From contig NZ_AXAC01000013.1 of NCBI RefSeq assembly GCF_000472665.1, positions 1 through 64,000 on the forward strand: DNA of 64,000 nt, read 5' to 3'. The position numbers and the translations under genes were made by a program. This DNA comes from Acetobacterium malicum subsp. dehalogenans DSM 11527. Its GTDB lineage: Bacteria > Bacillota > Clostridia > Eubacteriales > Eubacteriaceae. Every line of letters starts with the position of its first letter. Positions within the stretch are counted from its first letter, which is position 1. Below, one piece after another: positions 7,183 to 43,754 of the stretch. Under the pieces are notes generated by a model. The model searched no databases, was not told the origin of the DNA, and saw only the letters and a list, made by a program, of their open reading frames with translations.

Positions 7183-7890
7183 TCAATCTTCCAGCTCTTC
7201 CACCATCCGATAGCCGACCCCAACCTGGGTGACGATATACCGGGGTTCCGCCGGATTTTCTTCGATCTTTCGGCGAATGTTGGCCATGTTTACCCGTAAC
7301 GCCTGAATCTCATTGGTATAGGGGCCCCAAACCTCCCTGATAATATAATCGTGGGTCAGCACTTTCCCAATATTTTTTGACAGCAGCACGATAATTTTAT
7401 ATTCAATCGGCGTCAAATGAACGGACTTCTCACCCACCGTCACCACGCGCTTATCGTAATCAATGGCCAGCTCACCAATCTCCAGACGGGTGCTTTCCAT
7501 CGTGTTTTCGCCCCGGTTTTTAGGACTATGCCGGATGCCGGTGCGGATTCTTGCCAGTAACTCAGCGGTACCAAAGGGTTTGGTGATATAGTCATCGGCT
7601 CCCAGATCCAGGGCTTCGACCTTTTCCCGTTCATGTCCTCGGGCCGATACGACGACGACTGGTATCGTTGACCATTCCCGGATGGTTTTCAGCACATCCA
7701 TGCCGTCCATATCCGGCAAACCCAAATCCAGTAAAATCAGATCTGGCGAATAGGATGCTGTCATTGAAATCGCTTCTTTCCCAGTGACTGCCTTGATCAT
7801 TTTATAATCATTTGCTTTTAATATCGCCGCAATGAAGTTGGAAATTCCTGCTTCATCCTCCACAATCAATATGACTGACTTATTATCCAT
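7183..7890 (-). CDS. kdpE: KdpE response regulator
   Basis: OmpR-family response regulator of 235 residues: receiver domain with acidic pocket VEDEAG and phosphorylation site in LILLDLGLPDMDG, then a winged-helix DNA-binding domain. It activates the kdp operon when phosphorylated by KdpD, under potassium limitation or salt stress. An ORF open further upstream (to 8091) is only read-through into kdpD; the ATG at 7890 has GGAGGG seven bases upstream and starts the conserved sequence MDNKSVILIVEDE. It overlaps kdpD by eight bases and closes the operon. Confidence 0.93.
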   Translation of the reverse strand: MDNKSVILIVEDEAGISNFIAAILKANDYKMIKAVTGKEAISMTASYSPDLILLDLGLPDMDGMDVLKTIREWSTIPVVVVSARGHEREKVEALDLGADDYITKPFGTAELLARIRTGIRHSPKNRGENTMESTRLEIGELAIDYDKRVVTVGEKSVHLTPIEYKIIVLLSKNIGKVLTHDYIIREVWGPYTNEIQALRVNMANIRRKIEENPAEPRYIVTQVGVGYRMVEELED

Positions 7891-10594
7891 TTTCCTGGCC
7901 CTCCTGCAATGGTAAGGTGAATCGAAAAACTGCGCCGCCCTGCTCTTTATTTTCCGCTTCCATTTTCCCCTGATGGGCCTTGACGATGGAATTGCAGATG
8001 GACAGACCAATCCCCATTCCCCGGGATGAATCAGAGCTCCGTTTGCCGTCTGGCACATAGGTCTCAAAGAGATAGGGAAAGTCCTGGTCACTGATGCCTT
8101 TCCCCTGATCGCTTACTTCAAAAACTGCCTCATCGCCGAATTTTTTCACTTCAACTGCAATGATCGAATCTTCTGGCGAATATTTGATCCCATTTTCCAG
8201 CAGGTTGATGATCACCTGTTCAATCAGGGTGCCATCCATCGGGACGATCAACAGCGCCTCCGGTACCTTGACTGTAATCTTGCGGCTGGCAAAGCGTTTG
8301 CGAATCCGACTGATCGCTTCAGCCACAATTTCTTCGGCTGCCTCCGGCGTTTTAGTCACATTCATGGGACCCTCATTAATCCGGGTAACTGACAGCAGAT
8401 TTTCCACCATCCGGATCAGCCACTGGGAATCCTCCCGGATATTAATTAATAATGTATCCCGTGTTTCCTGATCCATCGTGCTGGCATTCTCCAGAATCGC
8501 CGAGCTTGCCCCTAAAATTCCAGTCAGCGGGGTTCGCAGATCATGGGATATACCCCGGAGCAGATTGCTTCGCATTTTTTCTTTCTCGGATTCAATCAGC
8601 ATTCGTCTTTGTTCACCGGAAAGATAATGACGCTCCAGAGCCATCTCAACCTGGGACGCGATCATCCTTAAAAACAAGCGGTTGTCCTGATTAAGAACGC
8701 CATTTGCACAGGACAAACCGATAACCCCCAGCACCTTACTGCGAGAGACAATCGGCATGTAAAAAGCTCCTGCCCCCATCAGGGTATCGGTTCCGGCCCC
8801 GGCACATTTCTTATTCATAAAGACCCAATGGGCCACCGCCCGCTCACTTTCTGTCATCAGAAAAGAAGCATCTCCGTCCAGCGATGATTGCAAAAATGTC
8901 TCAGAATCATGATCCTTTGGGTCCTGACTGTAGAAGATCGCCGACCGGCCAAAAATCTTGACCATATAGACATTGATCAACTCAATGGTTTCTTTAAAAT
9001 CTCGGGATGCCAGCAATTTTTTATTGATCTCATATAACACCTCGGTACGGTGTTCCCGTTCCACCGCCAGACGAGCCTGGGTTTTGATCCGGACCGTCAA
9101 GGTACTGGTGATCAAAGACATCAATAACATAATGACAAAGGTAATCGGATAGCCCTCCTGGATGGCTTGTAAGGTGTAATAGGGGATCGTGAAAAAGAAA
9201 TTAAAAACCAGTACCGTCAGGCATGAGGCCAGAATTCCATATAGATAGCCCACCGTTACCCGCGAAATAATCAAAACCGATAAAATATAAACCATAATGA
9301 TATTCTGGTCACTGATGCGCAGAGCTTGAAGCAGTAACGAAATAAAGGTGGCCACCACAATGATCAACAGGGTTTTTAACCCATCCTGCCAGGAAAAGAA
9401 CAGATTCCGACCGATCCGCAACCTGCGATGCTGATATGGTGCTCTGATGCTCTTCCTGGGACTGCCGGGGATAATGTGAATTTCAATGCTGGGCAGCATG
9501 GCAATCAGTTTTTCTTCAAAACTTGCCTTAAAATAACTGATCAGTGATTTTTTATTGCGGCTCTTGCCGATAACAATGTTGGTGATCCCGGTCAACTTGG
9601 CGTATTCAGCAATCACGGTGGCCACATCGCGCCCATTGAGGGTGACGATCTCGGCCCCTAACCGCTCGGCTAAAACCAGATTATCCCGAATTAATTTTTT
9701 TTCCTTATCCGTCATCACATCGCTATCCATATCTTCAACATAAACGGCTGTCCAGGGGGCCCGAAAGGCTTCGGCGGTGCGATTTGTCCAGCGAATGCAA
9801 CGGGCCGATGAGGGTGACGCACTGATACAAACCATCAGCTTAATATTCGCCATTTTTTTAGACAGCCGCGGCTCGTTCTGATTATCACTACTGATCCGAT
9901 TGGCAGCTTTCCGCATCGCTATTTCTCGAAGCAAACGGAGATTTTCTCGGGTGAAGAAATTTTCAAGCGCTTTTTGGGTCCGTTCCGGCCGGTAAATTTT
10001 GCCGCTTTCAAACCGTCGCAGCAATTCATCGGGTTCAATATCAATCAAGCGAATCTTATCGGCCTGATTAAAAACATCATCTGGTATGGTTTCTTTCACA
10101 CCGACCTGGGTGATTCTCTGCACCACATCATTGAGACTCTCCAGATGTTGAACATTGACCGTGGTAAAAACATCAATGCCGGCATTGAGGAGTTCTTCAA
10201 TATCCTGATATCTTTTTTTGTTGCGCATTCCCGGGGCATTGGTGTGGGCCAGTTCGTCCACCAGAATCAATTCTGGCTTCCGTTCCAGGGCGGCATCCAG
10301 ATCAAACTCTTTTAGCTGAAGTTTTCGGTATTCCACCATTTTTGGTGCCAGGGTCGGCAGGCCACTCATGATCTGAATGGTTTCCGGTCGGGTGTGCTCT
10401 TCCACATAACCCACCAGTACATCGACGCCACAGCGCAGCTGCTCCTGGGCGTCATCGAGCATCGCATAGGTTTTTCCAACCCCGGCGGCATACCCGAAAA
10501 AGATTTCCAGACGCCCCTTTTTATTTTGTTCTTTGATAAACAAATCTTCTAATATGTCATCCGGATTCGGACGGGTATCACTAAAATCCATCAC
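7883..10594 (-). CDS. kdpD: KdpD osmosensitive potassium sensor histidine kinase
   Basis: Full-length KdpD (903 residues). In order: KdpD N-terminal domain with the P-loop-like GYAAGVGKT (about 34-42), a universal-stress-protein-like domain (about 250-370), four membrane segments (about 405-500), a GAF domain, HisKA with the phospho-His in RGISHDLRTPLTG (about 680) and an HATPase domain (GMGIGLSIC). It senses potassium and turgor and phosphorylates KdpE. In several firmicutes the N-terminal domain also binds c-di-AMP; whether this one does is not readable by eye. It lies between kdpC (27-base gap) and kdpE (overlap). Confidence 0.95.
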   Translation of the reverse strand: MMDFSDTRPNPDDILEDLFIKEQNKKGRLEIFFGYAAGVGKTYAMLDDAQEQLRCGVDVLVGYVEEHTRPETIQIMSGLPTLAPKMVEYRKLQLKEFDLDAALERKPELILVDELAHTNAPGMRNKKRYQDIEELLNAGIDVFTTVNVQHLESLNDVVQRITQVGVKETIPDDVFNQADKIRLIDIEPDELLRRFESGKIYRPERTQKALENFFTRENLRLLREIAMRKAANRISSDNQNEPRLSKKMANIKLMVCISASPSSARCIRWTNRTAEAFRAPWTAVYVEDMDSDVMTDKEKKLIRDNLVLAERLGAEIVTLNGRDVATVIAEYAKLTGITNIVIGKSRNKKSLISYFKASFEEKLIAMLPSIEIHIIPGSPRKSIRAPYQHRRLRIGRNLFFSWQDGLKTLLIIVVATFISLLLQALRISDQNIIMVYILSVLIISRVTVGYLYGILASCLTVLVFNFFFTIPYYTLQAIQEGYPITFVIMLLMSLITSTLTVRIKTQARLAVEREHRTEVLYEINKKLLASRDFKETIELINVYMVKIFGRSAIFYSQDPKDHDSETFLQSSLDGDASFLMTESERAVAHWVFMNKKCAGAGTDTLMGAGAFYMPIVSRSKVLGVIGLSCANGVLNQDNRLFLRMIASQVEMALERHYLSGEQRRMLIESEKEKMRSNLLRGISHDLRTPLTGILGASSAILENASTMDQETRDTLLINIREDSQWLIRMVENLLSVTRINEGPMNVTKTPEAAEEIVAEAISRIRKRFASRKITVKVPEALLIVPMDGTLIEQVIINLLENGIKYSPEDSIIAVEVKKFGDEAVFEVSDQGKGISDQDFPYLFETYVPDGKRSSDSSRGMGIGLSICNSIVKAHQGKMEAENKEQGGAVFRFTLPLQEGQENG

Positions 10595-10621
10595 TTAATC
10601 CCCCACCTTCATCGCGTTATT

Positions 10622-11209
10622 TTACTGAATGCGTCCATCCAGGGCCAGATTCACCTTTAATACATTGACGCCTGACTCTCCCCAAAGGCCCAGCAGTTTT
10701 CCCGTGGTATAACGGGCAATAATTTCACGGACCGTTTTTGCTGAGATATTTCGCACCCGGGCAATCCGGTCAACCTGATATTCTGCCGCTTCCGGAGAGA
10801 TATTAGGATCAACCCCACTTCCCGAAGCTGTTACCAGATCACTGGGAATCGCCCCGCTATTTTCCGGATCAAGAGCCCGCCACCAGGCCACCCGCTCCTG
10901 TATCAGCGCTTTTTGCTCTTCACTGACCGGCGATAATTGCGATGTTCCCCGGGGTCTGCCGATCAGATATTGGGGCTTAGTAAAAGTTTGACCGATCAGG
11001 GCTGAGCCCACATCGATGGTTGTTCCGTTTTCTTGTGTTACTGTAATGATACTACCATTTGCCTGATTTGGAAATGCAATTTGTGCAATACTTGTTACAA
11101 TAACCGGATAAACTACCCCACAAATCAGGGTGAGCACCACAAAACTAACTAATGCCGGACGTAATTTTGACACCATCGATTCACTTCTATTTTTTTCCAT
11201 CTTCTTCAC
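10622..11209 (-). CDS. kdpC: KdpC, potassium-transporting ATPase subunit C
   Basis: A 195-residue single-span protein (membrane helix about 17-40) that stabilises the KdpFABC complex and helps ATP binding by KdpB. Visible family features are GSALIGQ, the stretch with YLIGRPRGTS, and SGSGVDPNISPEAA towards the C-terminus. It follows kdpB by one base, so translation is coupled. Confidence 0.95.
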   Translation of the reverse strand: MKKMEKNRSESMVSKLRPALVSFVVLTLICGVVYPVIVTSIAQIAFPNQANGSIITVTQENGTTIDVGSALIGQTFTKPQYLIGRPRGTSQLSPVSEEQKALIQERVAWWRALDPENSGAIPSDLVTASGSGVDPNISPEAAEYQVDRIARVRNISAKTVREIIARYTTGKLLGLWGESGVNVLKVNLALDGRIQ

Positions 11210-11210
11210 C

Positions 11211-13277
11211 TCACCCCAGACCCAGGACGGTTAACAGCATGTCCAGTAATTTAATCGCCACGAACGGAGCCACTAAACCACCCAAACCATAAATCAACAG
11301 ATTTCTTTGTAGCAATTTTCCTGCCGCCACTTCCTGATACTTAACCCCCTTTAAAGCCAGCGGAATCAAAGCGATTATAATCAGGGCGTTATAGATTATC
11401 GCCGCCAGGATGGCACTTTTGGCGCTGGTCAGTCCCATTATGTTGAGCCCCATTAATTGCGGATAAATACTGAAAAACAAAACCGGAATGATCGCGAAAT
11501 ATTTAGCCACATCATTGGCGACACTGAAGGTTGTCAGGGCCCCTCTGGTCATCAGTAGCTGTTTTCCGATGCGGACAATGTCAATCAGTTTGGTGGGACT
11601 GGAATCCAGATCCACCATATTCCCGGCTTCTTTGGCGGCCTGGGTTCCGGTATTCATGGCCACCGCCACATCAGCCTGGGCCAGTGCCGGGGCATCATTG
11701 GTTCCGTCGCCGGTCATGGCGACCAGATGTCCCTTGGCCTGATAATCCCGGATCAGGGCCAGTTTAGCCTCGGGGGTTGCTTCGGCCAGAAAATCGTCCA
11801 CTCCCGCCTCAGCCGCAATAGCCGCCGCCGTCATGGGATTGTCGCCGGTAATCATAATTGTTTTAATTCCCATCTTGCGCAAATCTTCAAAGCGCTCCTT
11901 GACGCCATTTTTGACAACATCCTTCAGATAGATCACGCCCAGAACCTGATTGTTTCTGGCCACCACCAGCGGGGTTCCTCCATCATTCGCGACTTTTTTG
12001 ACAATCTCCTGACATTCTTCGGGATAGTCGCCGCCGTTAGCCAAAACGAAGGCTTTCACGGCTTCGGCAGCCCCTTTGCGAATCTGCTGACCCTGAAAAT
12101 CAATCCCGCTCATTCTGGTTTTAGCTGTAAATGGCACAAAACTGGCTCCGAGGGCTTTGATGTCGCGGCCGCGCAGATCAAACCGTTCCTTTGCCAGCAC
12201 CACAATACTCCGCCCTTCCGCCGTTTCATCAGCCAGCGAAGACAATTGCGCCGCATCGGCCAAGGCTTTTTCGGTGACCCCGGTAATCGGGATAAACACA
12301 CTGGCCTGACGATTTCCCAGGGTGATGGTTCCGGTTTTATCCAGCAATAACACATCCACATCACCGGCTGCCTCAATCGCTCTGCCACTCATAGCCAGCA
12401 CATTGGCCTGATTCAGCCGACTCATCCCGGCAATACCAATCGCTGAAAGCAGGGCACCAATGGTTGTCGGAGCCAGACAAACCAACAGCGCGATGACATT
12501 GGTAATCGAAATCCCGGTGCCGGCACCGGCCTGTTTACTGGCAAAATAGGAGAAGGGCAGCAAGGTGGCGCTAACCACCAGAAAAATTATCGTCAGTGCG
12601 ATCAGTAGAATCTGCAAAGCGACTTCATTGGGGGTTTTTTTTCGCGATGCGCCCTCAACCATGGCAATCATTTTATCAAGAAAGCTTTCACCGGCCTCTG
12701 CTGTCACCTGAATCACCAGCCAGTCCGACATCAAGGTGGTCCCTCCGGTAACAGCACTGCGATCCCCTCCTGATTCCCGGATCACCGGTGCCGATTCTCC
12801 GGTGATGGCACTTTCATCCACTGACGCCGCCCCTTCAATGACATCGCCATCAATCGGAATCTGCTCGCCGGACTTGACATAAACGATATCGCCCTTTTTC
12901 AGGCTACTTGATGGAACCTCGGTGTAAACCGCCACATCGGCTGAGGATTTCAGCTTCCGCGCTTTGACATCTTTGCGGGCACTGCGCAAACTGTCGGCCT
13001 GAGCCCGACCACGGCCTTCGGCAATGGCTTCAGCAAAATTCGCAAATAAAACCGTAAACCACAGGATTAAGGCAATCGCCAGGGTATAACCGGCCCCTTC
13101 GTCGTTAATCTGGGCGAAACTCAGGAGATAAAGGGCGGTGGTCATGATGGCACCGACAAAAACCACAAACATCACCGGATTTTTTAACTGCACCCGGGGG
13201 GACAATTTAGTAAAAGATTGCCTGATGGCATCAATCAGAATATTTTTATTCAACTCATTATTTTCCACTATTATCAA
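11211..13277 (-). CDS. kdpB: KdpB, potassium-transporting P-type ATPase catalytic subunit
   Basis: A 688-residue P-type ATPase (class IA) that drives high-affinity K+ uptake through KdpA. Motifs seen: actuator loop TGESAPV, phosphorylation site [10 protein letters not shown], the hinge [15 protein letters not shown], and membrane segments at both ends (about 35-85, 215-275, 580-685). Length is usual. It lies 12 bases after kdpA. Confidence 0.96.
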
Positions 13278-13289
13278 CTCCAGTCGGCC

Positions 13290-14978
13290 TTATATTACGG
13301 CTGTAAAATAATCTGCAATCGGCCCTAAGGCCAATGCCGGCAAAAAACTCAGCGCCCCGATTAACAGCACAATCGCAATCAGCAAACCGATAAACAGGGC
13401 ATTGCTGGTCGAAAGCGTTCCTTCGGTTTTGGCAACCATCTTCTTATTTGCTAAATTTCCGGCCAGGAAAACCACCGCCACCAATGGCACAAACCGCACG
13501 ATCAGCATGATCAAGCCGCCAACCACATTCGTAAACACGGTGTTGGCCGCAAACCCGCCAAAGGCGCTGCCATTATTATTGCCCATTGAGCTAAAAGCAT
13601 ACAGTATTTCTGAAAACCCATGGGGGCCCGAGTTTGTCAACCAGTCACTGGCCTGGGGCATCAACACCGCCAGTGCGGTTCCCAGCAGGGTGAAAACCGG
13701 CGGTACCAGAACAATTAAACAGACCATTTTCATATCAAAGGGTTCGACTTTTTTGCCCAGATATTCGGGTGTCCGTCCGACCATCAGTCCGGCCATAAAA
13801 ACAGTCAGGATCACAAAACCAATCATGCCATACAGACCGCTGCCGACACCGCCAAAAACAACCTCACCGATCTGCATTAAAAACATCAGGACCAAGCCCG
13901 CCAGCGGGGTAAAACTGTCATGCATGGCATTCACCGAGCCATTCGATGCCGCCGTGGTGGCGGTTCCCCACAACGCCGAGGTTCCAACCCCGTGAATGAT
14001 TTCTTTGCCCTCCAGATTACCGGAATCCAGCACACCCGGAACCAGCGGCACCCCGATGGTTTCGCTGATGGTCACAGCCGCCAGTGCGCCGACAAACAGG
14101 ATCAGCATGACCAGATAGATGGCCCGGCCCTGCTTCATGTCGCCCACGGCTTTGCCAAAGGCCACGCAAAGCGATGCCGGAATCAGCAGAATGGATAACA
14201 GCTGTAAAAAGTTGGATAAGGCGGTCGGATTTTCCAGCGGGAACGCCGAGTTCATTCCAAAAAAGCCGCCACCATTGGTGCCCAACTGTTTGATCGCAAT
14301 TTGACTGGCTGCCGGTCCCAGGGGGATGCTTTGGGTGATGCCGGTTTCCAGTGCCACAATTTCGTGGTAGGGACTGATTGTCTGAACACCCCCCTGGGCA
14401 ACCAGCACCAGCGAGAATACCAGCGATAGGGGGATCAGCAGATATAAACTGACTCTGATTAGATCTACCCAAAAACTCCCAATCGTCGTTTTTTTAGTCT
14501 CAATAAACCCTCTGAGCAGGGCAAACAGTACTGCGATTCCAGTCGCTGCCGATAAAAAATTCCACACCCCCAGAGCTAATGCCTGGGTCAGATAGGAGAG
14601 GCTTGACTCCCCCGAATAAGCCTGCCAGTTCGTATTTGACACAAAGCTGGCCGCCGTATTAAAGGCCAGATCCCAGGATGGTGCAGCCAGATTTTCCGGA
14701 TTAAATGGCAGACTGGCTTGGAGCATTTGCAGCCCAAACACAAAGATCAGTCCCAAACCACTGAACACCATCACCGCCAGGACATAGTGTCCGGGACTCA
14801 TCTCATCCTCCTCCCGGATGCCCATTAAACGGTAGATCATTCTTTCAAGTGGCAGCATCAACGGGGACAGAAATGCCCTTTTCCCAGTCATTACCTTAAC
14901 CAGATAGTTACCCAGGGGAATTGAAAGCGCCACCAGAATCACCAGATACAGGCCATCGACTATTATCACCTGGCTCAT
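13290..14978 (-). CDS. kdpA: KdpA, potassium-transporting ATPase channel subunit
   Basis: A 562-residue polytopic membrane protein of the SKT family (related to TrkH and KtrB) that forms the K+ selectivity filter of the Kdp complex. About ten membrane helices are seen; filter-like segments include [48 protein letters not shown] and [14 protein letters not shown]. Start codon overlaps the kdpF stop as ATGA. Confidence 0.96.
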
Positions 14979-18710: not shown

Positions 18711-19364
18711 ATGTATATCATTATTATTGGCTGCGGCAAGCTAGGCAGCACCTTGGCCAAAGAGTTATCCATCACCGGATACGACGTTTCGGTCATCGAC
18801 CACGACAGCGAAAAACTGAATGTTCTGGGGAGCGGTTTTAATGGTTCCAAATTTAGAGGCATTGAATATGATAGTGATCGCTTGCTGGAAGCTGGCATCA
18901 AACAAGCTGATTTTGTTCTAGCGGTAACTGCTGATGATAACATTAACATTACCGTGTCCCTGATCGCCAAAAAAATCTACCATGTACCCCGCATCATTGC
19001 CCGGGTCGGGGATCCCAGCCGAAAACATATATATGACATGCTGGATATCGAAACCATTTGTCCCACCCAGCTGGGGGTGGAGATCCTTAAACGGAAGATC
19101 TCTGAAAAAAATGTGGAAGTGCTGGCGGTTATTCAACCGGACATTGAAATTATTGAACTGACTGTAAAAAAGCACAAACCTTGTACAGTAAAAAGTATCG
19201 AAGAAAAATATAATTGTATCCTGTCCGGGTTAATGGTGGCCGATCGCTTTGTTTTTCCTGAAAAAGATGCGCTGGTTCCCTATGGTGCGAAAATTATCTG
19301 TACCATCCTCAAGAAAGATAAAGAAAAAATCATTACCTCATTGGCTAAGGAGATATCACGATGA
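18711..19364 (+). CDS. trkA: TrkA-type potassium channel regulatory subunit, first of pair
   Basis: A 217-residue protein with an N-terminal Rossmann RCK domain (GCGKLGS near residue 7, acidic VIDHD about 27-31) and a C-terminal RCK_C domain. It binds NAD(H) or nucleotides at the cytoplasmic face of TrkH and gates potassium flow. TTAGGAG lies seven bases before the ATG. Its stop overlaps the next start by four bases. Two half-size subunits replace the single tandem TrkA of E. coli. Confidence 0.9.
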   Translation: MYIIIIGCGKLGSTLAKELSITGYDVSVIDHDSEKLNVLGSGFNGSKFRGIEYDSDRLLEAGIKQADFVLAVTADDNINITVSLIAKKIYHVPRIIARVGDPSRKHIYDMLDIETICPTQLGVEILKRKISEKNVEVLAVIQPDIEIIELTVKKHKPCTVKSIEEKYNCILSGLMVADRFVFPEKDALVPYGAKIICTILKKDKEKIITSLAKEISR

Positions 19365-20011
19365 AATCAATCATTATCGGGGGCGGAAAGGTCGGCTATT
19401 ATCTGGTCCAGACCCTTAAAAAAAGAGGCTATCACGTCGTCTTAATTGAAAGAAACGGTGCAATTTGTCAAAAAATCGCTGAAGACATTGACATTGAAAT
19501 AATTTGCGGCGACGGTACCGATCTGGAAGTTTTAAAAGACGCCGGCATCCAGGAAGCCGAAATCATTGCCGCCGTCACCGGAACCGATGAAGAAAATTTG
19601 GTGATCTGCGAGATTGCCAAGGTCAGTTTTAACATTAATAAAACCATCGCCCGGATTAATAATCCCAAGAACATTGCCATGTTCAAGGCTCTGGGGGTGG
19701 ATAAGACGGTTTGCAGCACCGAGGTGATTGCCAATCTTATCGAATATGAATTTGACAAAGATAATTTTAAACTGATCCACACCTTTGAGCGCGGCGCTAT
19801 GATTCTCGTCGAAATCATCATCCATGCCGATGACCGCTGGTCCAATCAATTTATCCAGGACATGGATTTGCCGGCCGAATGCGTCATCACTTCGATCCTC
19901 CGGGATGAACAGGTCATTTATCCCCGCGGCGATACGCGGTTTCTGGAAAATGACAAAGTGTTGGTGATTACCAATAAGGCGGCTTTAGCAAAATTAAAAA
20001 AAATTCGATAA
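19361..20011 (+). CDS. trkA: TrkA-type potassium channel regulatory subunit, second of pair
   Basis: A 216-residue RCK protein with GGGKVGYYL at the N-terminus, the acidic strand end LIERNG, and GDGTDLEVLKDAGI, followed by an RCK_C domain. It overlaps the preceding subunit by four bases, and both probably form a hetero-octamer or two rings under TrkH. The sequence is more like canonical TrkA than the first subunit. Confidence 0.9.
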   Translation: MKSIIIGGGKVGYYLVQTLKKRGYHVVLIERNGAICQKIAEDIDIEIICGDGTDLEVLKDAGIQEAEIIAAVTGTDEENLVICEIAKVSFNINKTIARINNPKNIAMFKALGVDKTVCSTEVIANLIEYEFDKDNFKLIHTFERGAMILVEIIIHADDRWSNQFIQDMDLPAECVITSILRDEQVIYPRGDTRFLENDKVLVITNKAALAKLKKIR

Positions 20012-20026
20012 CGGGAAGGAAATCAA

Positions 20027-20128
20027 ATGGAATCACGAAAAAATGAACTGCTGGGGCTGATGATTGAACTGCTGTCGGTATCGGCCTATGTACTGCTGTT
20101 TTTTATTCTAACCCTTGTGATGATTTAG
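20027..20128 (+). CDS. 33-residue membrane peptide between trkA and trkH
   Basis: ATG at 20027 with GGAAGG six bases upstream opens a 33-codon frame ending in TAG at 20126-20128. The peptide begins MESRKNELLGLM and continues as one hydrophobic helix (IELLSVSAYVLLFFIL, TLVMI). It fills the gap between trkA and trkH with seven bases to spare. Size and design resemble KdpF, the small stabilising subunit of the Kdp complex, so a similar role for TrkH is a reasonable guess. No homologue is known to me. Confidence 0.65.
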   Translation: MESRKNELLGLMIELLSVSAYVLLFFILTLVMI

Positions 20129-20135
20129 AATTGCC

Positions 20136-21662
20136 ATGAATACTTTTAACGGACGCTTTTACAGTATCTTAATCATCAGTTACTATACCGGTTTTGTTGT
20201 TCTGGGCATCGCCCTGTTGATGGTTCTCCCCATTTTGACAGCAGTGGGTCTTCAGGAATGGAATCCTTTTTGGGATTTTATCATCACCATGGCGATTTCG
20301 GTTATTCTGGGACTGCTCCTGATTATAATCGGAAAACAGACCCGCCACAACAAAAGCTTTGTCCAGTGGAAACACGGTTTTGTGGTGGCATCACTTTCCT
20401 GGATTATTTTGATGTTTTTGTGTGCTATTCCCTATTTGCTCAGTGGCCATGTCAATTCAATTCTGGATGCCTGTTTTGATGTCATGAGCGGCTTTACTAC
20501 CACGGGCATGGTTTTGACCCAGGATCTGGATCATATCTCGCTCAGTTTAAATCTATGGCGTCATATGCTCACCTTTATTGGCGGTCAGGGGATGATTGTC
20601 CTGGCGTTGACATTCTTATTAAAAGAAACCGGCGGTGCCTACATCTTTTATGTCGGGGAAGCCAAAGATATCGACCTGGTTCCCAATGTCAAGGGAACGG
20701 CTCGGATCATCTGGAAAATCAGCATGGTTTATCTGTTGATCGGAACGGCAGCCTTGTGGATTGACGGCATGACCATCGGACTGAACCCCCTCTCGGCATT
20801 TTTTAATGGCCTGTTTATTTTTGCATCATCCTGGAGCACCGGCGGTTTTGCCCCCTATACCCAGAACATGATGTATTACCATAGCTTTTCTTATGAAAAC
20901 CTGACGATCATCTTTTTTATTCTGGGTTCATTGAATTTTGGCCTGCATTATGCGATTCTTTCCGGGAATAAAAAAGAATTGCTCAAAAACATCGAAACCC
21001 AGAGCTTTTTTATCACCTCCTTTCTGGCCAGCGTTCTGGCCGTCATGTGGCTGGCTCGAACCGGCGTCTATCATGATGCCATCGCGATGTTTCGACGGGT
21101 TGTTTACAATGTCTTGTCCGCCCATACCACCACCGGATTTGGTTCGGTTTATGCCCGCCAATTCGCCCTGGAATGGGGTGACTTCGGGATCCTGATTCTC
21201 GTCATTGTAATGTTGATTGGCGGCTCGGCCTGTTCCACCGCCGGCGGCTTTAAGGGACTGCGGATCGGCATCATCTTTAACAGCATCCTTGCTGATGTAA
21301 AACGCTTGTTGGCTTCAGAACGCAATGTCAAAGTCTTTCGTTTTCACCACATCAAGGATCAGATTCTGGCGGATGGCCTGGTCAAGGCATCGGCCCTGAT
21401 CATCATTTGTTATCTGATCACCTTTGCCATCGGAACGCTGATCGGCACCTTTTATGGCTACCCACTGGCCAGCGCCGCCTTTGAAGCGGCCTCGATTACC
21501 GGCAATGTGGGATTATCCATCGGCATCACCGTCCCGGGTATGCCAGCAGTGATGAAAATCTACTATATTATTGCCATGTATCTGGGTCGACTGGAGTTTC
21601 TTTCCGTTTTCGCCCTCATCGGCTTCATCATCGGAGGCATAAAAAAATGTTGGACAAAATAA
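20136..21662 (+). CDS. trkH: TrkH potassium transporter membrane subunit
   Basis: A 508-residue polytopic protein of the TrkH/KtrB superfamily with four pore repeats. The four filter segments are SGFTTTGMV, SSWSTGGFAP, SAHTTTGFGS and ASITGNVGLS. It carries K+ (possibly with Na+ or H+) across the membrane under TrkA control. No strong Shine-Dalgarno precedes the ATG, so it is probably coupled to the small peptide upstream. Its end overlaps the next gene by 16 bases. Confidence 0.94.
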   Translation: MNTFNGRFYSILIISYYTGFVVLGIALLMVLPILTAVGLQEWNPFWDFIITMAISVILGLLLIIIGKQTRHNKSFVQWKHGFVVASLSWIILMFLCAIPYLLSGHVNSILDACFDVMSGFTTTGMVLTQDLDHISLSLNLWRHMLTFIGGQGMIVLALTFLLKETGGAYIFYVGEAKDIDLVPNVKGTARIIWKISMVYLLIGTAALWIDGMTIGLNPLSAFFNGLFIFASSWSTGGFAPYTQNMMYYHSFSYENLTIIFFILGSLNFGLHYAILSGNKKELLKNIETQSFFITSFLASVLAVMWLARTGVYHDAIAMFRRVVYNVLSAHTTTGFGSVYARQFALEWGDFGILILVIVMLIGGSACSTAGGFKGLRIGIIFNSILADVKRLLASERNVKVFRFHHIKDQILADGLVKASALIIICYLITFAIGTLIGTFYGYPLASAAFEAASITGNVGLSIGITVPGMPAVMKIYYIIAMYLGRLEFLSVFALIGFIIGGIKKCWTK

Positions 21663-35269: not shown

Positions 35270-35938
35270 TCAGCGGGCTGGCTTCAATATCCGGGCCAGA
35301 TCCTCAAGGTCGGCGGCATGAATGATCGCCAGCACCTCATCGGCCGGCAATAGCCTGGTATCACCATGGGGAATAAGCAGTTGGCCATTTCTGATAATTG
35401 CCACTAAAACACATTCGGTAGGTAGGCCCAGTTCTCTCACCGTCTTACCCACTGCCAGCGATTCCGGGTGAACCTTTTCTTCCACCAATGAAAATTGTCC
35501 CTGGTTCAACTTAAGCAGGGTCATCATATCCCCCACTGACATTTCTTCAGCAACCAGTGTTGCCATCAGCTCGGCCTGGTTTAACGCCACATCCACCCCC
35601 ATTTCCGGAGTGAATAACCAGGCATTCTTGGGATTTTTAATCCGCGCCAGAATTCGCGGCACCTGATATTCCAGGCGGGCAATGGTGGCAGCCACCAGAT
35701 TGATTTCATCAGCCCCAGTCACCACCGCCAGCACATCGGCCGAACGGATCCCGGCCGCTTCCAGAACACTAGGGTCGGTGCCGCTCCCCAACACCAGCAC
35801 CTCTTTGGGCAGATCACAACCCAGCCGTTCCAATTGATGCGTTCGGATTTCAATGAGCTTAACCTGATGGCCGCCGTTTTGCAGCAACGAAGTCAGATAA
35901 CAGCCCACCTTGCCGCCGCCTACGATTATTACTTTCAT
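35270..35938 (-). CDS. TrkA-like RCK protein, second of the ATPase-linked pair
   Basis: A 222-residue RCK_N plus RCK_C protein starting MKVIIVGGGKVGCYL, with acidic LIEIRTHQ and GSGTDPSVLEAAGI. It is separated from its upstream partner by 17 bases. There is no trkH or ktrB gene nearby; instead the operon begins with a P-type ATPase, so its target may be that pump or a Trk/Ktr channel elsewhere. Confidence 0.88.
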   Translation of the reverse strand: MKVIIVGGGKVGCYLTSLLQNGGHQVKLIEIRTHQLERLGCDLPKEVLVLGSGTDPSVLEAAGIRSADVLAVVTGADEINLVAATIARLEYQVPRILARIKNPKNAWLFTPEMGVDVALNQAELMATLVAEEMSVGDMMTLLKLNQGQFSLVEEKVHPESLAVGKTVRELGLPTECVLVAIIRNGQLLIPHGDTRLLPADEVLAIIHAADLEDLARILKPAR

Positions 35939-35955
35939 GATCTGATATCCCCTTT

Positions 35956-36606
35956 CTATCCTAATCCCAGCAGCGATTTAAGACGTTCCCCTGATACCGC
36001 AGCCACTGCTAAATGAACCAGATCGCGGTTTTCAAACACCGTATTAAGCGCCGGTATGATCGAGCGGTTCCCGCGGCTGATCGATACCACGCTGACTTCG
36101 CCAGGAATTGTCAATTCCCCCACCCGTCGCCCGACCAACAAGGCTGGTATCTCAATTTCCATAATATCGACATCGCCATTCCCGATACTCATGGCCACAT
36201 TAACCGGTGCAAAACTCAGCAAATCGGCCACCCGATTTACGCCCCAGGACATTGGATCAAAGACCTGCAGTCCCAGCCGCCGATAAATTTCCGCTTTGCG
36301 GGGTTCATGAAGGGCTGACACGACCCGGGGAACCCCAAATATCTGACTGGCAATCCGGGCGGTGAGGGCATTGGCCTCGTCGTTGGAGGTCACCGCGGCC
36401 AGCGAGTCTGCCCGCTCAATTCCGGCCGAAAGCAATACATCCCGGTCAAATCCTACCCCGGCGATGGTTTTTCCCTTAAAGCCGGCTCCCAAATGTTTAA
36501 AGGTCAATGGGTCCTGATCAATGACGGTGATGTCGTGAGCACTCTGATTCAGTTTAAGAGCTAAACCGGATCCGATTCGCCCACAGCCTATTATAATGGT
36601 TTTCAT
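35956..36606 (-). CDS. TrkA-like RCK protein, first of the ATPase-linked pair
   Basis: A 216-residue RCK protein starting MKTIIIGCGRIGSGLALKL, with acidic VIDQDP and an RCK_C domain. Its ATG directly follows the TAA of the ATPase gene (TAAATG), so translation is tightly coupled to the pump. It corresponds to the first subunit of the trk pair at 18711. Confidence 0.88.
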   Translation of the reverse strand: MKTIIIGCGRIGSGLALKLNQSAHDITVIDQDPLTFKHLGAGFKGKTIAGVGFDRDVLLSAGIERADSLAAVTSNDEANALTARIASQIFGVPRVVSALHEPRKAEIYRRLGLQVFDPMSWGVNRVADLLSFAPVNVAMSIGNGDVDIMEIEIPALLVGRRVGELTIPGEVSVVSISRGNRSIIPALNTVFENRDLVHLAVAAVSGERLKSLLGLG

Positions 36607-39474
36607 TTAGCTATCCCCTTTCTCAATCTCTGTTTTATTATGTTTTTTATCCAAGCGTCGTTTATCCCAATTTCGCAAGAAGGCCTTCCGCAGTTCATCA
36701 ATAAGAATCACCACTGGCACCCACATAAAGAGATAGGCCCATTCAATCAAGCCGATTGGGGCGGTATTAAAGATCTCGTGCAAAAACGGCGTGTAGATCA
36801 GAATACTGAAGACCGTTAGCTCACAGATGATCCCGATTAAGATCATATGGTTGCTGAACAGCCCCACCTTAAACACCGAGGCCCGTTCGGTTCGACAATT
36901 GAAAACAATCCCGATTTGGGTAACCACAATCGCCCCTAACGTCATGGTGGTCGCCATTCGGTAAATCTCGCCCGAGTCAGCCATCGGTATCCCCGGCCAG
37001 CCGTTCTGCCAGTATAGGAAGAAGAAGGCTGACATCGCAATGGCCGACTCCATGATCCCATAAAACAGAAAAGCACGAATGAGTAACGGTCGATTGAGCA
37101 AATGTTCTTGCTGCGATCTTGGCGGACGCTGCATCACCCCTTCTTCTGGCAGTTCAACCCCCAAGGCGATGGCCGGGATCATATCGGTACCCAAATCCAC
37201 CGCCAGAATCTGCATGACCGTCAGCGGCAGCGGGATCTGCCCTTTGGCGAATAAAAACACAATAAAAGGCACCGCCTCGGGGACATTGCTGTTTAAAATA
37301 TAGGTGGCAAACTTACGGATATTGTTGTATACCCCCCGGCCTTCTTCCACCGCATTGACAATCGAGGCGAAATTGTCGTCGGTGAGAATCATATCAGCGG
37401 CTTCCTTGGCCACATCGGTTCCGGAAATCCCCATGGCAATGCCGATGTCAGCCTTTTTAAGGGCCGGTGAATCATTGACGCCATCACCGGTGACCGCCAC
37501 CACATTACCCATCTCCTGGAGGGCGGTGACTACCCGCAGCTTTTGTTCCGGTGCCACCCGGGCAAAGACAATTTCCTCAGTTAGGGCTTTTTTAAGATCC
37601 ACGTCATTAATTTCGTCCAGTTCAACACCAGTGACAATCCGGGGCTGAAGACTATGGATAATGCCGATCCTCCGGGCAATGCTTTCGGCCGTTAAGCCGT
37701 AATCACCGGTGATCATAATAATCTTTATCCCAGCCTGATGGCATTTTTTAACCGCTGCTGCCACTTCCACCCGGGGCGGATCCGCCATCACCGTGAGACC
37801 TAAAAAGGTCATATTGTTTTCAATGTGATCAGGCGTATAGTCGCTGAGACGCTCGGACAAACCCATGTCTTTGGTGAGAATCCGCATCGCTACTGCCAAA
37901 ACCCGAAGTCCTTTGCGGGCATAGTCATCATTGGCCGCCATCACCTGCTTACGGGTATCCTCATCCATCGCCACATCTTCACCGTCTTTGAGATAATGGG
38001 TACACAAATCCAACACCTCTTTGGGTGCCCCCTTGATATAGGCCAGCTTTTCGAGATCTGAGATATCACGGGATACCTGATGAATCGTACTCATCCGCTT
38101 GCGATGGGACTCAAAGGGCAGCTCCCGCAACCGCGGACTGTGCGAAAGCTCCGCGTCCAGATCAATTTTACCCTTCCGGGCGGCCACCACCAGGGCGGCC
38201 TCGGTAGGATCCCCGAGAATATTCCAATGGTTTATTTCCGGGGAGGGCGGCAATAAGCGGGAATTATTGCAGAGGCTGGCGGCCAGCAACAGTTTTCGCA
38301 TATCCTGGTTTTCGGCCAGCGAAATAACGGTCTCACCAGCCATTATTTCCCCCTCCGGGGCATAACCAACCCCGGTTACCGTAATTTGCTGATTGACCAT
38401 CCAGCAGTCACTAACCGTCATTTCATTCTGGGTCAGGGTTCCGGTTTTGTCAGTACAAATCACCGTGGTACAGCCCAAGGTTTCGACCGCTGATAAGCGT
38501 TTGATTAAAGCATTGCGTTTGGCCATCCGCTTGACTCCCATGGCCAGGGATAAGGTCACCGTGGGTAATAATCCTTCGGGGATAAAAGCCACAATCATCC
38601 CCATGGCGAAAATAAAACTTTCGGTAATATTGACATGAGCAAGCAGAACCGCCAGCACAAAAAAGATGACCCCCATGCTGATCGCCATCGCTGAAACCAG
38701 CCGGGTGATCCGTCCCATTTCCAGCTGCAGCGGACTGGGTACTTCCACCATGTTCTGGGTCAGATCGGCAATTTTACCGAATTCGGTATTCATCCCAGTG
38801 GCAAACACCACCGCCTTACAGGCCCCCGAAGCCGCATTGGTTCCGGCAAAAATCAGGTTGGGCTGTTCCGAACGACCCAGGTCAGTCCGATGACCAACAT
38901 CTTTGGTTTTATGGGCCGGATGGGATTCCCCGGTCAGAATCGACTGATCAGCTCTGAAATCATTGTCCTCAACCAGACGGCTATCGGCCGAAATGCGGTC
39001 GCCCTCGGCCAGAATAATCAGATCGCCGGGCACCAGTTCCTCGGCCAGAATTTTGACTTCGGCTCCATCCCGGATCACCCGGGCATAGGTCGGCAGTAGT
39101 TGTCCCAGCGCTTCAATCGCTTTTTCGGCCTGAAACTCCTGCCAGAAACTGAATAATCCATTAATGACATTGACCAGCCAAATGGCAATGGCCAGTTGGG
39201 GCAGCTGGGCTATCAGGGCCACCACGCCGCCAATCCATAAGAGAATGGCCATCAGGTGGGTAAAATTGGCCAGAAATTTCCAGATCAGCGGTTTACCCTT
39301 CTTTTTTTGAATACTGTTCTCACCAAAATGCGCCAATCGTGCTGCCGCTTCCTCAGACGTCAGACCTTCCGCACTTGTTTTCAGCTCGATATAAACATCA
39401 GCAACGAATAAGTTTTCGATGGGTTTTTCTAAGCCTATTCCCAGCGCTTCAACATCTGTCTGCTGCATCATCAA
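36607..39474 (-). CDS. P2C-like (Na,K-ATPase-type) cation-transporting P-type ATPase
   Basis: A 955-residue type II P-type ATPase: N-terminal cation ATPase domain, TGES at 181-184, PEGLLPTVTLSLA with Glu300 in TM4, phosphorylated Asp342 in DKTGTLTQNE, hinge GDGVNDSPALKKAD, and a full C-terminal six-helix part. TM5 reads SNVPEAVPF and TM6 reads LAVDLGTDMIPAI, very like TM5 and TM6 of animal Na,K- and H,K-ATPases (SNIPE, DLGTDM), whose Glu and Asp side chains bind Na+ and K+. I therefore favour monovalent cation transport over Ca2+. It is first in an operon with two TrkA-like proteins. Confidence 0.88.
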   Translation of the reverse strand: MMMQQTDVEALGIGLEKPIENLFVADVYIELKTSAEGLTSEEAAARLAHFGENSIQKKKGKPLIWKFLANFTHLMAILLWIGGVVALIAQLPQLAIAIWLVNVINGLFSFWQEFQAEKAIEALGQLLPTYARVIRDGAEVKILAEELVPGDLIILAEGDRISADSRLVEDNDFRADQSILTGESHPAHKTKDVGHRTDLGRSEQPNLIFAGTNAASGACKAVVFATGMNTEFGKIADLTQNMVEVPSPLQLEMGRITRLVSAMAISMGVIFFVLAVLLAHVNITESFIFAMGMIVAFIPEGLLPTVTLSLAMGVKRMAKRNALIKRLSAVETLGCTTVICTDKTGTLTQNEMTVSDCWMVNQQITVTGVGYAPEGEIMAGETVISLAENQDMRKLLLAASLCNNSRLLPPSPEINHWNILGDPTEAALVVAARKGKIDLDAELSHSPRLRELPFESHRKRMSTIHQVSRDISDLEKLAYIKGAPKEVLDLCTHYLKDGEDVAMDEDTRKQVMAANDDYARKGLRVLAVAMRILTKDMGLSERLSDYTPDHIENNMTFLGLTVMADPPRVEVAAAVKKCHQAGIKIIMITGDYGLTAESIARRIGIIHSLQPRIVTGVELDEINDVDLKKALTEEIVFARVAPEQKLRVVTALQEMGNVVAVTGDGVNDSPALKKADIGIAMGISGTDVAKEAADMILTDDNFASIVNAVEEGRGVYNNIRKFATYILNSNVPEAVPFIVFLFAKGQIPLPLTVMQILAVDLGTDMIPAIALGVELPEEGVMQRPPRSQQEHLLNRPLLIRAFLFYGIMESAIAMSAFFFLYWQNGWPGIPMADSGEIYRMATTMTLGAIVVTQIGIVFNCRTERASVFKVGLFSNHMILIGIICELTVFSILIYTPFLHEIFNTAPIGLIEWAYLFMWVPVVILIDELRKAFLRNWDKRRLDKKHNKTEIEKGDS

Positions 39475-41213: not shown

Positions 41214-42191
41214 TTAAAACAGTTCTTTGCTCATTTCATCAATGCACTCATCGATATAAGCGATAACGCCTTCAAAATTCTCAATTGGCAGACCAGATGT
41301 CTGGCAAGGAATGAAGTATTTGTGGCCATTGGCTTTACAGGTTTCTTCCACCTGTTTTTTTACCACTTCTTTTTCCCAGCCGGGATAATCAACAGTACCG
41401 CTGTGAAGACCGCCCATGAAGGTGATCTTGTCGCCGTATTTTTCAACCAGTTCCGGAATATTATTGGTGTTCATTACCCCTTGCCAGATATCAATGCCCA
41501 CTTCGATCATGTAAGGCACTAAATTAGCCGCATAGGAGTCACTATGGTGGATAATCAATTCCACGCCATTGTCTTTATAGAACTGATAGATTTTTTTGTA
41601 CGATGGCACAAAGAATTCTTCAAACATTTCTGGCGAAATAAAGGAAGAAATCTGGCTGCCCCAGTCATCATGATGTAAAATGGCTTCCGGCTTCAATTTT
41701 TCCATCATCACGGCGGCAAATTCCAATTCATATTCAGTCAGATAGTCAATCAGTTCCTGCATTGCTTCTGGCTCTTCGTAAAGGGCCATCAGGGCGTTTT
41801 CCATGCCCATCAGGTGATGGGTCATTTCGAAGAGACCTGGTGCGAAAAAGGCCGTCGCAAACTTTTCTTTACGGTCAACGGCATTGGCGTGAGCAATCGC
41901 TGGCGCCCAGGCTTCGTCTGAGGTGGCAATGGCTGGTTTTTTGACGGTTTTTTTCCACTCGGTAATATCCTGAATCACCGCCAAGCCATCGTGATGAACC
42001 GGGAACATGCCTAACTGGCCTTCTGGCCATTGCCAGGTAATACCCCAATGATCTTTCCATGTTTGACCATATTTAAATTCTGTACCAGTTGGTACTTCCA
42101 TGATCAGATCAATAAATTCATATTGTTTGACAAAACGATCCGGATTGCCACCCTTCATTGTTTCCAGCAAATTTTCTCTGATTGTTAACAT
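41214..42191 (-). CDS. UroD/MtaA-family methyltransferase I (O-demethylase type)
   Basis: A 325-residue protein of the uroporphyrinogen decarboxylase/MtaA superfamily. In Acetobacterium such proteins (OdmB, VdmB, MtvB) transfer the methyl group of aryl methyl ethers to a corrinoid protein with the help of a zinc ion. Candidate metal ligands are in ILHHDDWGSQ and LIIHHSDSYA. It is the last of three genes: methyltransferase II, corrinoid protein, this enzyme. The methyl donor cannot be told from sequence. Confidence 0.8.
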   Translation of the reverse strand: MLTIRENLLETMKGGNPDRFVKQYEFIDLIMEVPTGTEFKYGQTWKDHWGITWQWPEGQLGMFPVHHDGLAVIQDITEWKKTVKKPAIATSDEAWAPAIAHANAVDRKEKFATAFFAPGLFEMTHHLMGMENALMALYEEPEAMQELIDYLTEYELEFAAVMMEKLKPEAILHHDDWGSQISSFISPEMFEEFFVPSYKKIYQFYKDNGVELIIHHSDSYAANLVPYMIEVGIDIWQGVMNTNNIPELVEKYGDKITFMGGLHSGTVDYPGWEKEVVKKQVEETCKANGHKYFIPCQTSGLPIENFEGVIAYIDECIDEMSKELF

Positions 42192-42245
42192 AACTTCTCC
42201 TTCTTATGCTTTATTTGGGATAATTGTTACTGTTCTTGTAGCGGC

Positions 42246-42881
42246 TTAAGCGCCAATCAGTTCTTTGGCTTTAGCAGCAGCACTACCGGCATCCGGTGCA
42301 TAACCATCGGCGCCGATTTCTGTAGCGTACTCTGGTGTAACCGGAGCCCCACCAACAATGACCTTCATATCCGGATAAGCTGCTTTAATCGTTTGAACGG
42401 CTTCTTTTAACGCTGGCATGGTAGTGGTTAACAGACCAGAACAAGCAACTAATACAACATTATTATTTTCTTTTACCGCTTCTACAAACTTGTCTGCCGG
42501 TACGTCAACGCCCAGGTCAACCATATCAAAGCCAGCGCTTTCAAGCATCATCACAACCAGGTTTTTACCGATATCGTGCAGATCGCCGGCTACAGTTCCC
42601 ATGATACAGGTTCCCAGTGAATTGGCGCCATCGCCGGCCATCACTGGTTTTAACACTTCTACCCCTTTGGACATCGCTTTGGCGGCAATTAACATTTCTG
42701 GAACAAAGATTTCTCCAGATGAGAATTTATCCCCGACCACGCCCATGGAGGCAACCATTGCATCCAGAATATCCTGCGCTTTATCACCGGCATCCAGAGC
42801 TTCCTGAACGGCTGCGGCAACCTTCTTTGATTTACCGGTTTCGACCAATACTTTTACATCTTCAATTTTTGACATTTTCAA
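42246..42881 (-). CDS. Corrinoid methyl-carrier protein
   Basis: A 211-residue cobalamin-binding protein of the MtgC/MtvC type: helical cap domain (about 1-90) and Rossmann B12 domain with DLHDIGKNLV, whose His is the lower cobalt ligand, then VDLGVDVP, ACSGLLTTT and VGGAPVTPEYA. It shuttles methyl groups between methyltransferase I (41214) and II (42957). No activating enzyme (RACE) is encoded beside it, so reactivation must come from elsewhere. Confidence 0.92.
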   Translation of the reverse strand: MKMSKIEDVKVLVETGKSKKVAAAVQEALDAGDKAQDILDAMVASMGVVGDKFSSGEIFVPEMLIAAKAMSKGVEVLKPVMAGDGANSLGTCIMGTVAGDLHDIGKNLVVMMLESAGFDMVDLGVDVPADKFVEAVKENNNVVLVACSGLLTTTMPALKEAVQTIKAAYPDMKVIVGGAPVTPEYATEIGADGYAPDAGSAAAKAKELIGA

Positions 42882-42956
42882 TTTCTCCTTTGATTTTTAT
42901 ACTAATTTTTATTTTAATCACCCGGAACCTGTGTGAGTGCCGGGTTTGGTTGTAAC

Positions 42957-43754
42957 TTATTTTACGAAAATACCTTCCCGGAAAGCACCGATATATTCCA
43001 TGCAGTATTCATCTTCACCCATCATCGCTTCGGTGGCAAACAGCATTCCCATCATATCCTTGTTCAGGGGATCGAGAATAAAGCTGTCCATGCCGGCGCT
43101 CATGGCCAGAACGGCAAAGGCCTGGTTGGCAATCCGGCGGGCTGGTAAATTGAAAGAAATGTTGCTGACGGCACCGGTGACATGAATGGTTGGATATTGC
43201 TTTTTGATTTCCCGAATGACTTCGGTGACCATGGTAATCCCATCTTCCGAGGTGCACAGCATTTCAATCAAGGGATCGATGTGCATGCGGGAGGGGTCAA
43301 TCTTATATTCCTGGCATTTTGCCATTAAGTCAGTGAACACTTCCAGACGATCCTTGGCGGTTTTAGGGATGCCCTTGTCACTGTTTAGCAAAGCCACACA
43401 TTCCCACTTGGTATCGGCCAGTACCTTAAAGGCCACATCGACCTTGTCCCCTTCTAATGACACGGAGTTAAACAGTCCTGGTTTGTTGCAGTATTTCATC
43501 GATTCAATGCAGGTATAAACATTGGGGCTGTCCACTGCAATCGGCACGTCAGTAGCATCCTGAACGATGTCAATCAACCATTTCATCGTTTCCAGTTCGA
43601 TGTCATCGTCCACTGAGGCACAGACGTCGATGAAATTAGCCCCAGCTTCGGCCTGCTTAATCGCCAGGTTCCGGATAAATTCGACATCCTTTGCCGCTAT
43701 CGCTTTCGCGGTTGAGGGAATAGCACCGTTAATTTTTTCGCCAATAATTATCAT
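42957..43754 (-). CDS. Methylcobamide:tetrahydrofolate methyltransferase (II)
   Basis: A 265-residue pterin-binding TIM barrel of the DHPS/AcsE family. It moves the methyl group from the corrinoid protein to tetrahydrofolate, feeding the Wood-Ljungdahl pathway. Motifs: EKINGAIPSTAKAI at the N-terminus, GANFIDVCAS, and VDSPNVYTCIE. First gene of the operon, downstream of the TetR-controlled promoter. Confidence 0.9.
   Translation of the reverse strand: MIIIGEKINGAIPSTAKAIAAKDVEFIRNLAIKQAEAGANFIDVCASVDDDIELETMKWLIDIVQDATDVPIAVDSPNVYTCIESMKYCNKPGLFNSVSLEGDKVDVAFKVLADTKWECVALLNSDKGIPKTAKDRLEVFTDLMAKCQEYKIDPSRMHIDPLIEMLCTSEDGITMVTEVIREIKKQYPTIHVTGAVSNISFNLPARRIANQAFAVLAMSAGMDSFILDPLNKDMMGMLFATEAMMGEDEYCMEYIGAFREGIFVK

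Follow-up and report, generated by a model that had tools for sequence, protein, structure and literature searches.

An Acetobacterium P2C-lineage ATPase encoded with two RCK proteins belongs to an operon conserved across phyla

Introduction

Why is a P-type ATPase that resembles the animal Na+,K+-ATPase encoded together with two RCK proteins, which are known chiefly as regulators of channels and secondary transporters? The question is raised by a three-gene unit on the reverse strand of a 64,000-nucleotide stretch of Acetobacterium malicum subsp. dehalogenans DSM 11527 (contig NZ_AXAC01000013.1, positions 1 to 64,000), referred to here as the window. The initial annotation of this DNA suggested either that the RCK subunits regulate the pump directly or that the unit balances a pump with a distant channel. 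The trio proves to form an operon that is conserved within a single P2C lineage, and the reading favoured here, with moderate confidence, is that the RCK pair directly regulates an ATP-driven Na+/K+ pump, the three genes forming one regulated ion pump.

Results

The three-gene unit

36607-39471, reverse strand: P2C-lineage P-type ATPase, 954 amino acids, first gene of the unit (translation, Pfam, tree)
38566-38580, reverse strand: motif PEGLL of transmembrane segment 4 (TM4), pump residues 298-302 (translation, alignment)
37276-37293, reverse strand: TM5 motif NSNVPE, pump residues 727-732 (translation, alignment)
37180-37197, reverse strand: TM6 motif DLGTDM, pump residues 759-764 (translation, alignment)
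36604-36609, reverse strand: TAA/ATG junction of pump stop and RCK1 start (sequence)
35956-36606, reverse strand: RCK1, 216 amino acids, TrkA_N and TrkA_C, resembling the first half of TrkA (Pfam, PDB match)
35270-35938, reverse strand: RCK2, 222 amino acids, TrkA_N and TrkA_C, resembling the second half of TrkA (Pfam, PDB match)

The TAAATG junction, in which the RCK1 start codon abuts the pump stop codon with zero gap, and the second RCK gene behind it are present as originally described; the stop of RCK1 and the start of RCK2 lie 17 nucleotides (nt) apart. The preferred start of the pump is the ATG at 39471, which is preceded by GAGGGTG and has a TTG just upstream at 39474. Pfam recognises the E1-E2 ATPase and Cation_ATPase N and C domains in the pump, and TrkA_N and TrkA_C score above the Pfam cut-offs in both RCK proteins. 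The unit is counted as three genes because it is bounded upstream by a divergent gene pair, presumably pdxST, and beyond the RCK2 end by a response-regulator-like gene. No beta or FXYD gene was seen within it on reading the open reading frames (ORFs), no family search having been made, and it contains no TrkH, in keeping with the earlier statement that the operon holds no Trk/Ktr channel gene; one TrkH gene lies elsewhere in the window (20136-21662).

Conservation of the trio

An even sample of the phylum comprised 398 genomes, from which the best 30 loci were examined with flanks of about 1.5 kb. Eleven genomes, including the window's own, carry an orthologue of the P2C pump (47-64% identity), and RCK1 and RCK2 lie directly downstream of it in ten of the eleven; the remaining loci, which are P2A control pumps, lack the pair (0/19). 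A scan of named genomes covered the best 80 loci, those most similar to the window pump, a selection that biases the rate upward: RCK1 follows the pump in 76 of them and RCK2 in 75, and one contig ends within RCK1. By assigned database labels, which name seven phyla, RCK1 is present at 24/26 loci in Bacillota, 20/20 in Actinomycetota, 13/13 in Chloroflexota, 9/9 in Thermodesulfobacteriota, 4/6 in Methanobacteriota, 2/2 in Bipolaricaulota, 2/2 in Myxococcota (both rows bearing the title 'Deltaproteobacteria' only) and 2/2 among unlabelled records. Two further samples, again with flanks of about 1.5 kb, concerned Chloroflexota and an archaeal phylum. The best 30 Chloroflexota loci from 400 genomes include 25 with both RCK genes, one with a single RCK gene and four with none. 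Among the best 30 archaeal loci from 392 genomes, six have the RCK pair (57-62% identity), and RCK genes are absent from the 1.5 kb flanks of 22 animal-like P2C rows (0/22; 44-50% identity); this count sets aside L178 (a broken ORF) and L194 (not P2C), both without RCK. Two loci in the collection are duplicates (L171 of L069 and L235 of L062).

The distance from pump stop to RCK1 start has a median of 4 nt, and the genes overlap by 4 nt (a gap of -4) at 29 of 86 loci, as measured with RCK1 starts estimated by alignment. Overlaps of 4 nt also occur in a plasmid record from Streptomyces, where the annotated order is ATPase-TrkA-TrkA. Within Acetobacterium, the pump also adjoins RCK1 in G1003, and a different genome (G915) shows only a Trk-linked RCK at the threshold used. 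Chance adjacency was considered and rejected because the trio is conserved across loci, at 75/80 versus 0/19 for P2A pumps and 0/22 for animal-like archaeal P2C pumps. The synteny survey that the initial annotation had proposed therefore finds a mostly overlapping or near-contiguous operon conserved across phyla, and no loss of synteny outside this strain.

The pump and its cation sites

The segments earlier read as Na+- and K+-binding are present in TM4, TM5 and TM6, where PEGLL, YILNSNVPE and DLGTDM of the pump align with PEGLL, YTLTSNIPE and DLGTDM of human Na,K-ATPase alpha-3. That protein is also the top PDB sequence match (553 bits, versus 500 bits for the best Ca2+ pump). Trees were built with a quick IQ-TREE method on subsets of rows (71 and 57 rows for the pump, 71 for RCK), and alpha-3 and the Ca2+ pump LMCA1 stand on long branches in the pump trees. 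The proposed phylogeny against P2A and P2C families groups the pump with human alpha-3: the P2A pumps and LMCA1 fall on one side of a starred branch with support of 100 and all P2C rows, alpha-3 included, on the other, so that placement among Ca2+ pumps was not found. By alignment and tree placement, the pump belongs to the P2C lineage, apart from the Ca2+ pumps. None of the type-specific type-II NCBIfam models reaches its cut-off for this protein (the Na,K model TIGR01106 gives 649.4 of the required 946.1 bits, and the PMR1-type Ca2+ model 660.4 bits), and it is for this reason filed as a prokaryotic P2C branch and not as a Na,K-ATPase. An AlphaFold model of the pump has a mean pLDDT of 76.8 and a pTM of 0.65; the lowest Foldseek E-values obtained with it are to Na,K-ATPase, and the TM-scores do not tell it from SERCA.

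Ligand positions are cited by animal Na,K-ATPase numbering. The window pump keeps the residues at E327, S775, N776, E779, D804, D808, Q923 and E954 and has N at the T774 position and I at the D926 position. In group A (79 rows), E327, N776, D804 and D808 are present in 79/79 and E779 in 78/79. D926 belongs to Na+ site III, and its replacement makes a 3Na:2K stoichiometry doubtful. The only acids at that position among aligned RCK-linked rows are the E residues of three Atopobiaceae pumps (L097, L101, L108). The same position is N in 22/22 animal-like archaeal P2C rows (L175-L198), which disagrees with a 2023 review in which all site residues of methanogen pumps are described as conserved (PMC10654040); the sequences compared may differ.

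Na+ export and K+ import are the most likely activity of the pump. A cargo other than Na+ and K+ (Na+ or H+ only, K+ in reverse, or divalent cations in some members), with RCK control as proposed, is the alternative that survives best, though it is held to be unlikely. In its favour are the replaced D926 and the N at T774 of the window pump, the NCBIfam scores, which are below all type-specific cut-offs and slightly higher for the PMR1-type Ca2+ model than for Na,K, and sub-groups with different sites: group B (4 rows) has HLTPE and DLGTE, i.e., L for N776 and E for D808, and group C has PEGLP, SHNMGE and DLGSD, keeping the five site I/II ligands with H for S775. These altered-site sub-groups of RCK-linked pumps (L026-L033, L253-L258) suggest other ions. 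Against this, the window pump has the E, S-N..E and D...D of Na,K-ATPase, while P2A rows have N at the first TM6 ligand and PEGLP in TM4 in 19/19; it also groups with alpha-3 against P2A and has alpha-3 as its best PDB match, as described above.

Other K+ transporters and the history of the RCK pair

The window's own genome contains three TrkH genes, each adjoining its own RCK gene or genes; of seven strong RCK-N matches the pump's two are the ones left over, and two further matches are weak. The TrkH in the window belongs to a split Trk system, RCKa-RCKb-TrkH (18711-21662, forward strand), and the window also carries a kdp operon (7183-14978, reverse strand) with KdpA, KdpB, KdpC, KdpD-like and KdpE-like products by translation, KdpA also by Pfam; Kdp, split Trk and the pump-RCK unit thus occur in a single window. 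No TrkH or KtrB match was found in the flanks of 91 pump loci, which span 1.5 kb at 11 of them and up to 8 kb at the other 80.

The check on absence of trkH was made in 55 pump-bearing genomes picked for spread, 50 with the trio and five without the pair; completeness figures cover 10/55. A TrkH match is absent in 25/55, two of which (G379, G439) are without the pair, and 23 of the 50 trio-bearing genomes, many of them metagenome-assembled genomes or drafts, have no TrkH/KtrB match. Among the 24 TrkH-less genomes searched for Ion_trans_2, the two-TM K+ channel family, 14 have no match, 13 of them with the trio; RCK pairs thus occur in genomes with neither a TrkH nor a two-TM K+ channel match. 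Six genomes (G085, G120, G365, G399, G423, G424) have no RCK-N match with E < 1e-5 apart from the pump's pair, and neither TrkH/KtrB nor Ion_trans_2 is matched in them; G085 and G120 are single contigs and 100% complete, and G365 is 100% complete. Among the 25 TrkH-less genomes, 17 have a full-strength Kup match and 11 a Kdp match, and two (G400, G401) have a weak Kup-like match only. The pump as sole K+ importer of TrkH-less genomes was rejected on these matches, Kup or Kdp being found in all 25. Also rejected was the idea that a nearby Trk system has the unit as its K+ arm, given that the TrkHs of the own genome have their own RCKs and that 23/50 trio genomes show no TrkH match.

In the RCK tree (71 rows), RCK1 proteins form a clade with starred support of 98 and RCK2 proteins a clade with support of 86. 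The pair linked to the window TrkH and a pair linked to a KimA-like transporter (476 bits to KimA) each place one member in the RCK1 clade and one in the RCK2 clade, and the pair is therefore an older two-gene module used by TrkH, a KimA-like transporter and P2C pumps. The fused TrkA and the single KtrA of the own genome fall outside both clades, on long branches. The groupings of particular Actinomycetota rows with particular Bacillota rows recur in the trees of the pump, of RCK1 and of RCK2, and distances over 29 loci correlate at 0.71 (pump-RCK1), 0.69 (pump-RCK2) and 0.80 (RCK1-RCK2), values that are not corrected for organism phylogeny. A reciprocal test covered 391 genomes of the class, with 30 of 40 listed RCK1 matches examined as loci: the six top RCK1-profile scores (at least 232) are all beside the pump, and the other 24 loci (score of 200 or less) comprise nine beside TrkH and 15 without a recognised partner in short flanks. 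Individual arrangements include an RCK pair behind a KimA-like K+ transporter in Flexilinea (L163, 2769-6103), a second P2C-like pump, an RCK pair and a KimA-like gene in succession in Chloroflexi RBG_16_57_11 (L165, 1488-7483), and an RCK pair with no recognised transporter adjoining (L164, 3402-4759).

These data bear on the possibility that the RCK pair acts in trans on a different K+ transporter (TrkH, Kup, a KimA-like transporter, Kdp or an antiporter), the operon co-producing two K+/Na+ arms that make no contact. This is judged improbable, slightly more so than a different cargo. The usual role of RCK proteins at channels and secondary transporters speaks for it, as do the three TrkH genes in the window's genome, the Kup or Kdp match (weak and Kup-like in G400 and G401) of every TrkH-less genome and the related RCK pairs that accompany KimA-like transporters. 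It is opposed by the RCK already present at each own-genome TrkH, by the 13 trio-bearing genomes with neither a TrkH nor an Ion_trans_2 match, and by the three trees, in which the pair tracks the pump across phyla while other K+ transporters vary.

The RCK proteins

Of the two halves of TrkA, the first is the better match for RCK1 and the second for RCK2. Both proteins also match chains of PDB 3l4b, a crystal structure described as a 4+4 ring of two separate Thermotoga RCK proteins with AMP bound (PMC4380455). Each of the three glycines of GxGxxG is kept in 85/86 RCK1 and in 82-84 of 85 RCK2 proteins; the beta-2 acid is D in 80/86 RCK1 and E or D in 84/85 RCK2. With these glycines and acids kept, binding of a nucleotide or NAD(H) by RCK1 and RCK2 is likely. 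The c-di-AMP signature of RCK_C, as given in PMC10117811, occurs in 0/171 RCK1/RCK2 and 0/7 comparison RCKs, a search that had no positive control. That these are metabolic NAD- or nucleotide-binding regulators unconnected to transport, in an operon of merely historical arrangement, is very improbable: the Rossmann domains do weakly match NAD-binding families too, but both proteins have TrkA_C, their best PDB matches are TrkA/Ktr-type proteins, and gene order is kept over several phyla, often with 4-nt overlaps.

Pumps without the pair

The pair is not essential to every pump of this kind, since it is missing beside the pump in some relatives; among the best 80 named-genome loci, L121, L125, L128 and L131 have neither RCK1 nor RCK2. 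Of four plasmid-borne P2C-type pumps without RCK (L201-L204), three are cyanobacterial and one is from Lactiplantibacillus plantarum. In the 57-row tree, 12 archaeal pumps without RCK and alpha-3 make one group (97, starred), and all RCK-linked pumps with five pair-less relatives make the other (94). The five relatives lacking the pair are dispersed within this group, so that a minimum of four changes on starred branches is needed; the pattern suggests repeated loss if the pair was ancestral there, by a method that cannot separate gain from loss. Among residue features of the pump, R601 in the P-domain tracks the presence of the pair, as do P204 and the A-domain loop 187-204, which follows TGES; E350 is altered in 4/5 pair-less relatives, yet E is also present in the three cyanobacterial rows. 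Three conserved columns are altered in at least 4/5 pair-less relatives, versus 0-2 in 40 random divergent RCK-linked sets. Loop 187-204 and R601 may be regarded as candidate contacts in a suggestive sense only, since phylogeny and longer branches confound the signal.

Surrounding sequence

An Rfam scan of 14 loci returned nothing but a tRNA, and promoter- and terminator-like sites were scarcely more frequent than in shuffled sequence. Beside the pdxST-like genes, the window contains genes at 41214-43754 (reverse strand) that we take to encode corrinoid methyltransferase components.

Discussion

In the favoured reading of the operon, the P2C ATPase would use ATP to drive alkali cation transport, most likely exporting Na+ and importing K+. 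RCK1 and RCK2, by homology to the Thermotoga proteins TM1088A and TM1088B, would assemble into a cytosolic two-subunit ring equivalent to a split TrkA, the Rossmann folds of which may bind an adenine nucleotide or NAD(H). By contacting the pump, such a ring could shift pump activity with the energy or ion state of the cell, as the TrkA ring does for TrkH; the direction of control would probably be a brake on the pump at low ATP, sparing ATP. We lean, by a little, towards the broader proposal that a whole P2C lineage, the sister of the archaeal and animal pump with members in several bacterial phyla and in some methanogens, is under a dedicated RCK ring, a cassette shared with TrkH and KimA.

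Several observations weigh against direct control of a Na+/K+ pump. A pump-RCK fusion ORF is absent among 91 loci of the RCK lineage. Of the 25 TrkH-less genomes, 23 have Kup or Kdp at full strength, which the pair could serve in trans. Related RCK pairs are also found next to TrkH, next to a KimA-like transporter or with no recognised transporter beside them, so that the module is not specific to pumps, and the pump occurs without the pair at L030, L121, L125, L128, L131 and L201 and in 4/30 Chloroflexota loci. As to the ions, D is found at the D926 position in 0/79 group A pumps (E in three), and NCBIfam gives the pump no Na,K-type name. Of the two possibilities first raised for the locus, direct regulation is preferred to balance with a distant channel because 23/50 trio genomes have no TrkH/KtrB match and 13 of these also have no Ion_trans_2 match; other K+ transporters (Kup, Kdp, KimA-like) are nevertheless present in those genomes.

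The window pump shares with the animal Na+,K+-ATPase alpha subunit the P2C clade, the site I/II ligands and the Q923 and E954 positions; it differs in that D926 is replaced, in its two RCK genes with no beta/FXYD gene seen among the ORFs, and in its branch, which is separate from the animal/archaeal one. P2C motifs are likewise shared with the methanogen pumps, the function of which is described as untested and the role as an open question in the 2023 review, where neither TrkA nor RCK occurs (PMC10654040). The archaeal pumps differ in that 22/22 animal-like rows have no RCK in their 1.5 kb flanks and 12 sit in a tree group with alpha-3. The Thermotoga Trk system, as described in PMC4380455, also has two separate RCKs from overlapping genes, TM1088A and TM1088B, to which RCK1 and RCK2 correspond through the 3l4b chains; its partner, however, is the channel-forming TrkH TM1089, whereas here it is a P-type ATPase, and TM1088A consists of an N domain only, whereas RCK1 has both lobes. 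KdpFABC is another P-type ATPase of K+ homeostasis with extra subunits, but KdpB belongs to a different P-type class and its partner is the channel-like KdpA; two reports describe its inhibition as involving serine phosphorylation (PMC7535926, PMC9651954). No description of RCK proteins with a P2C pump was found in the titles and abstract openings of the open-licence papers searched, and the conserved trio suggests a controlled ion pump of a kind for which no description was found.

The conserved RCK pair offers a concrete lead on what the prokaryotic relatives of the sodium pump sense and how they are switched. If the favoured reading is true, RCK gating rings would extend beyond channels and secondary transporters to ATP-driven pumps, and one branch of the P2C family, unlike the animal/archaeal one, would carry a cytosolic control unit that binds nucleotides.

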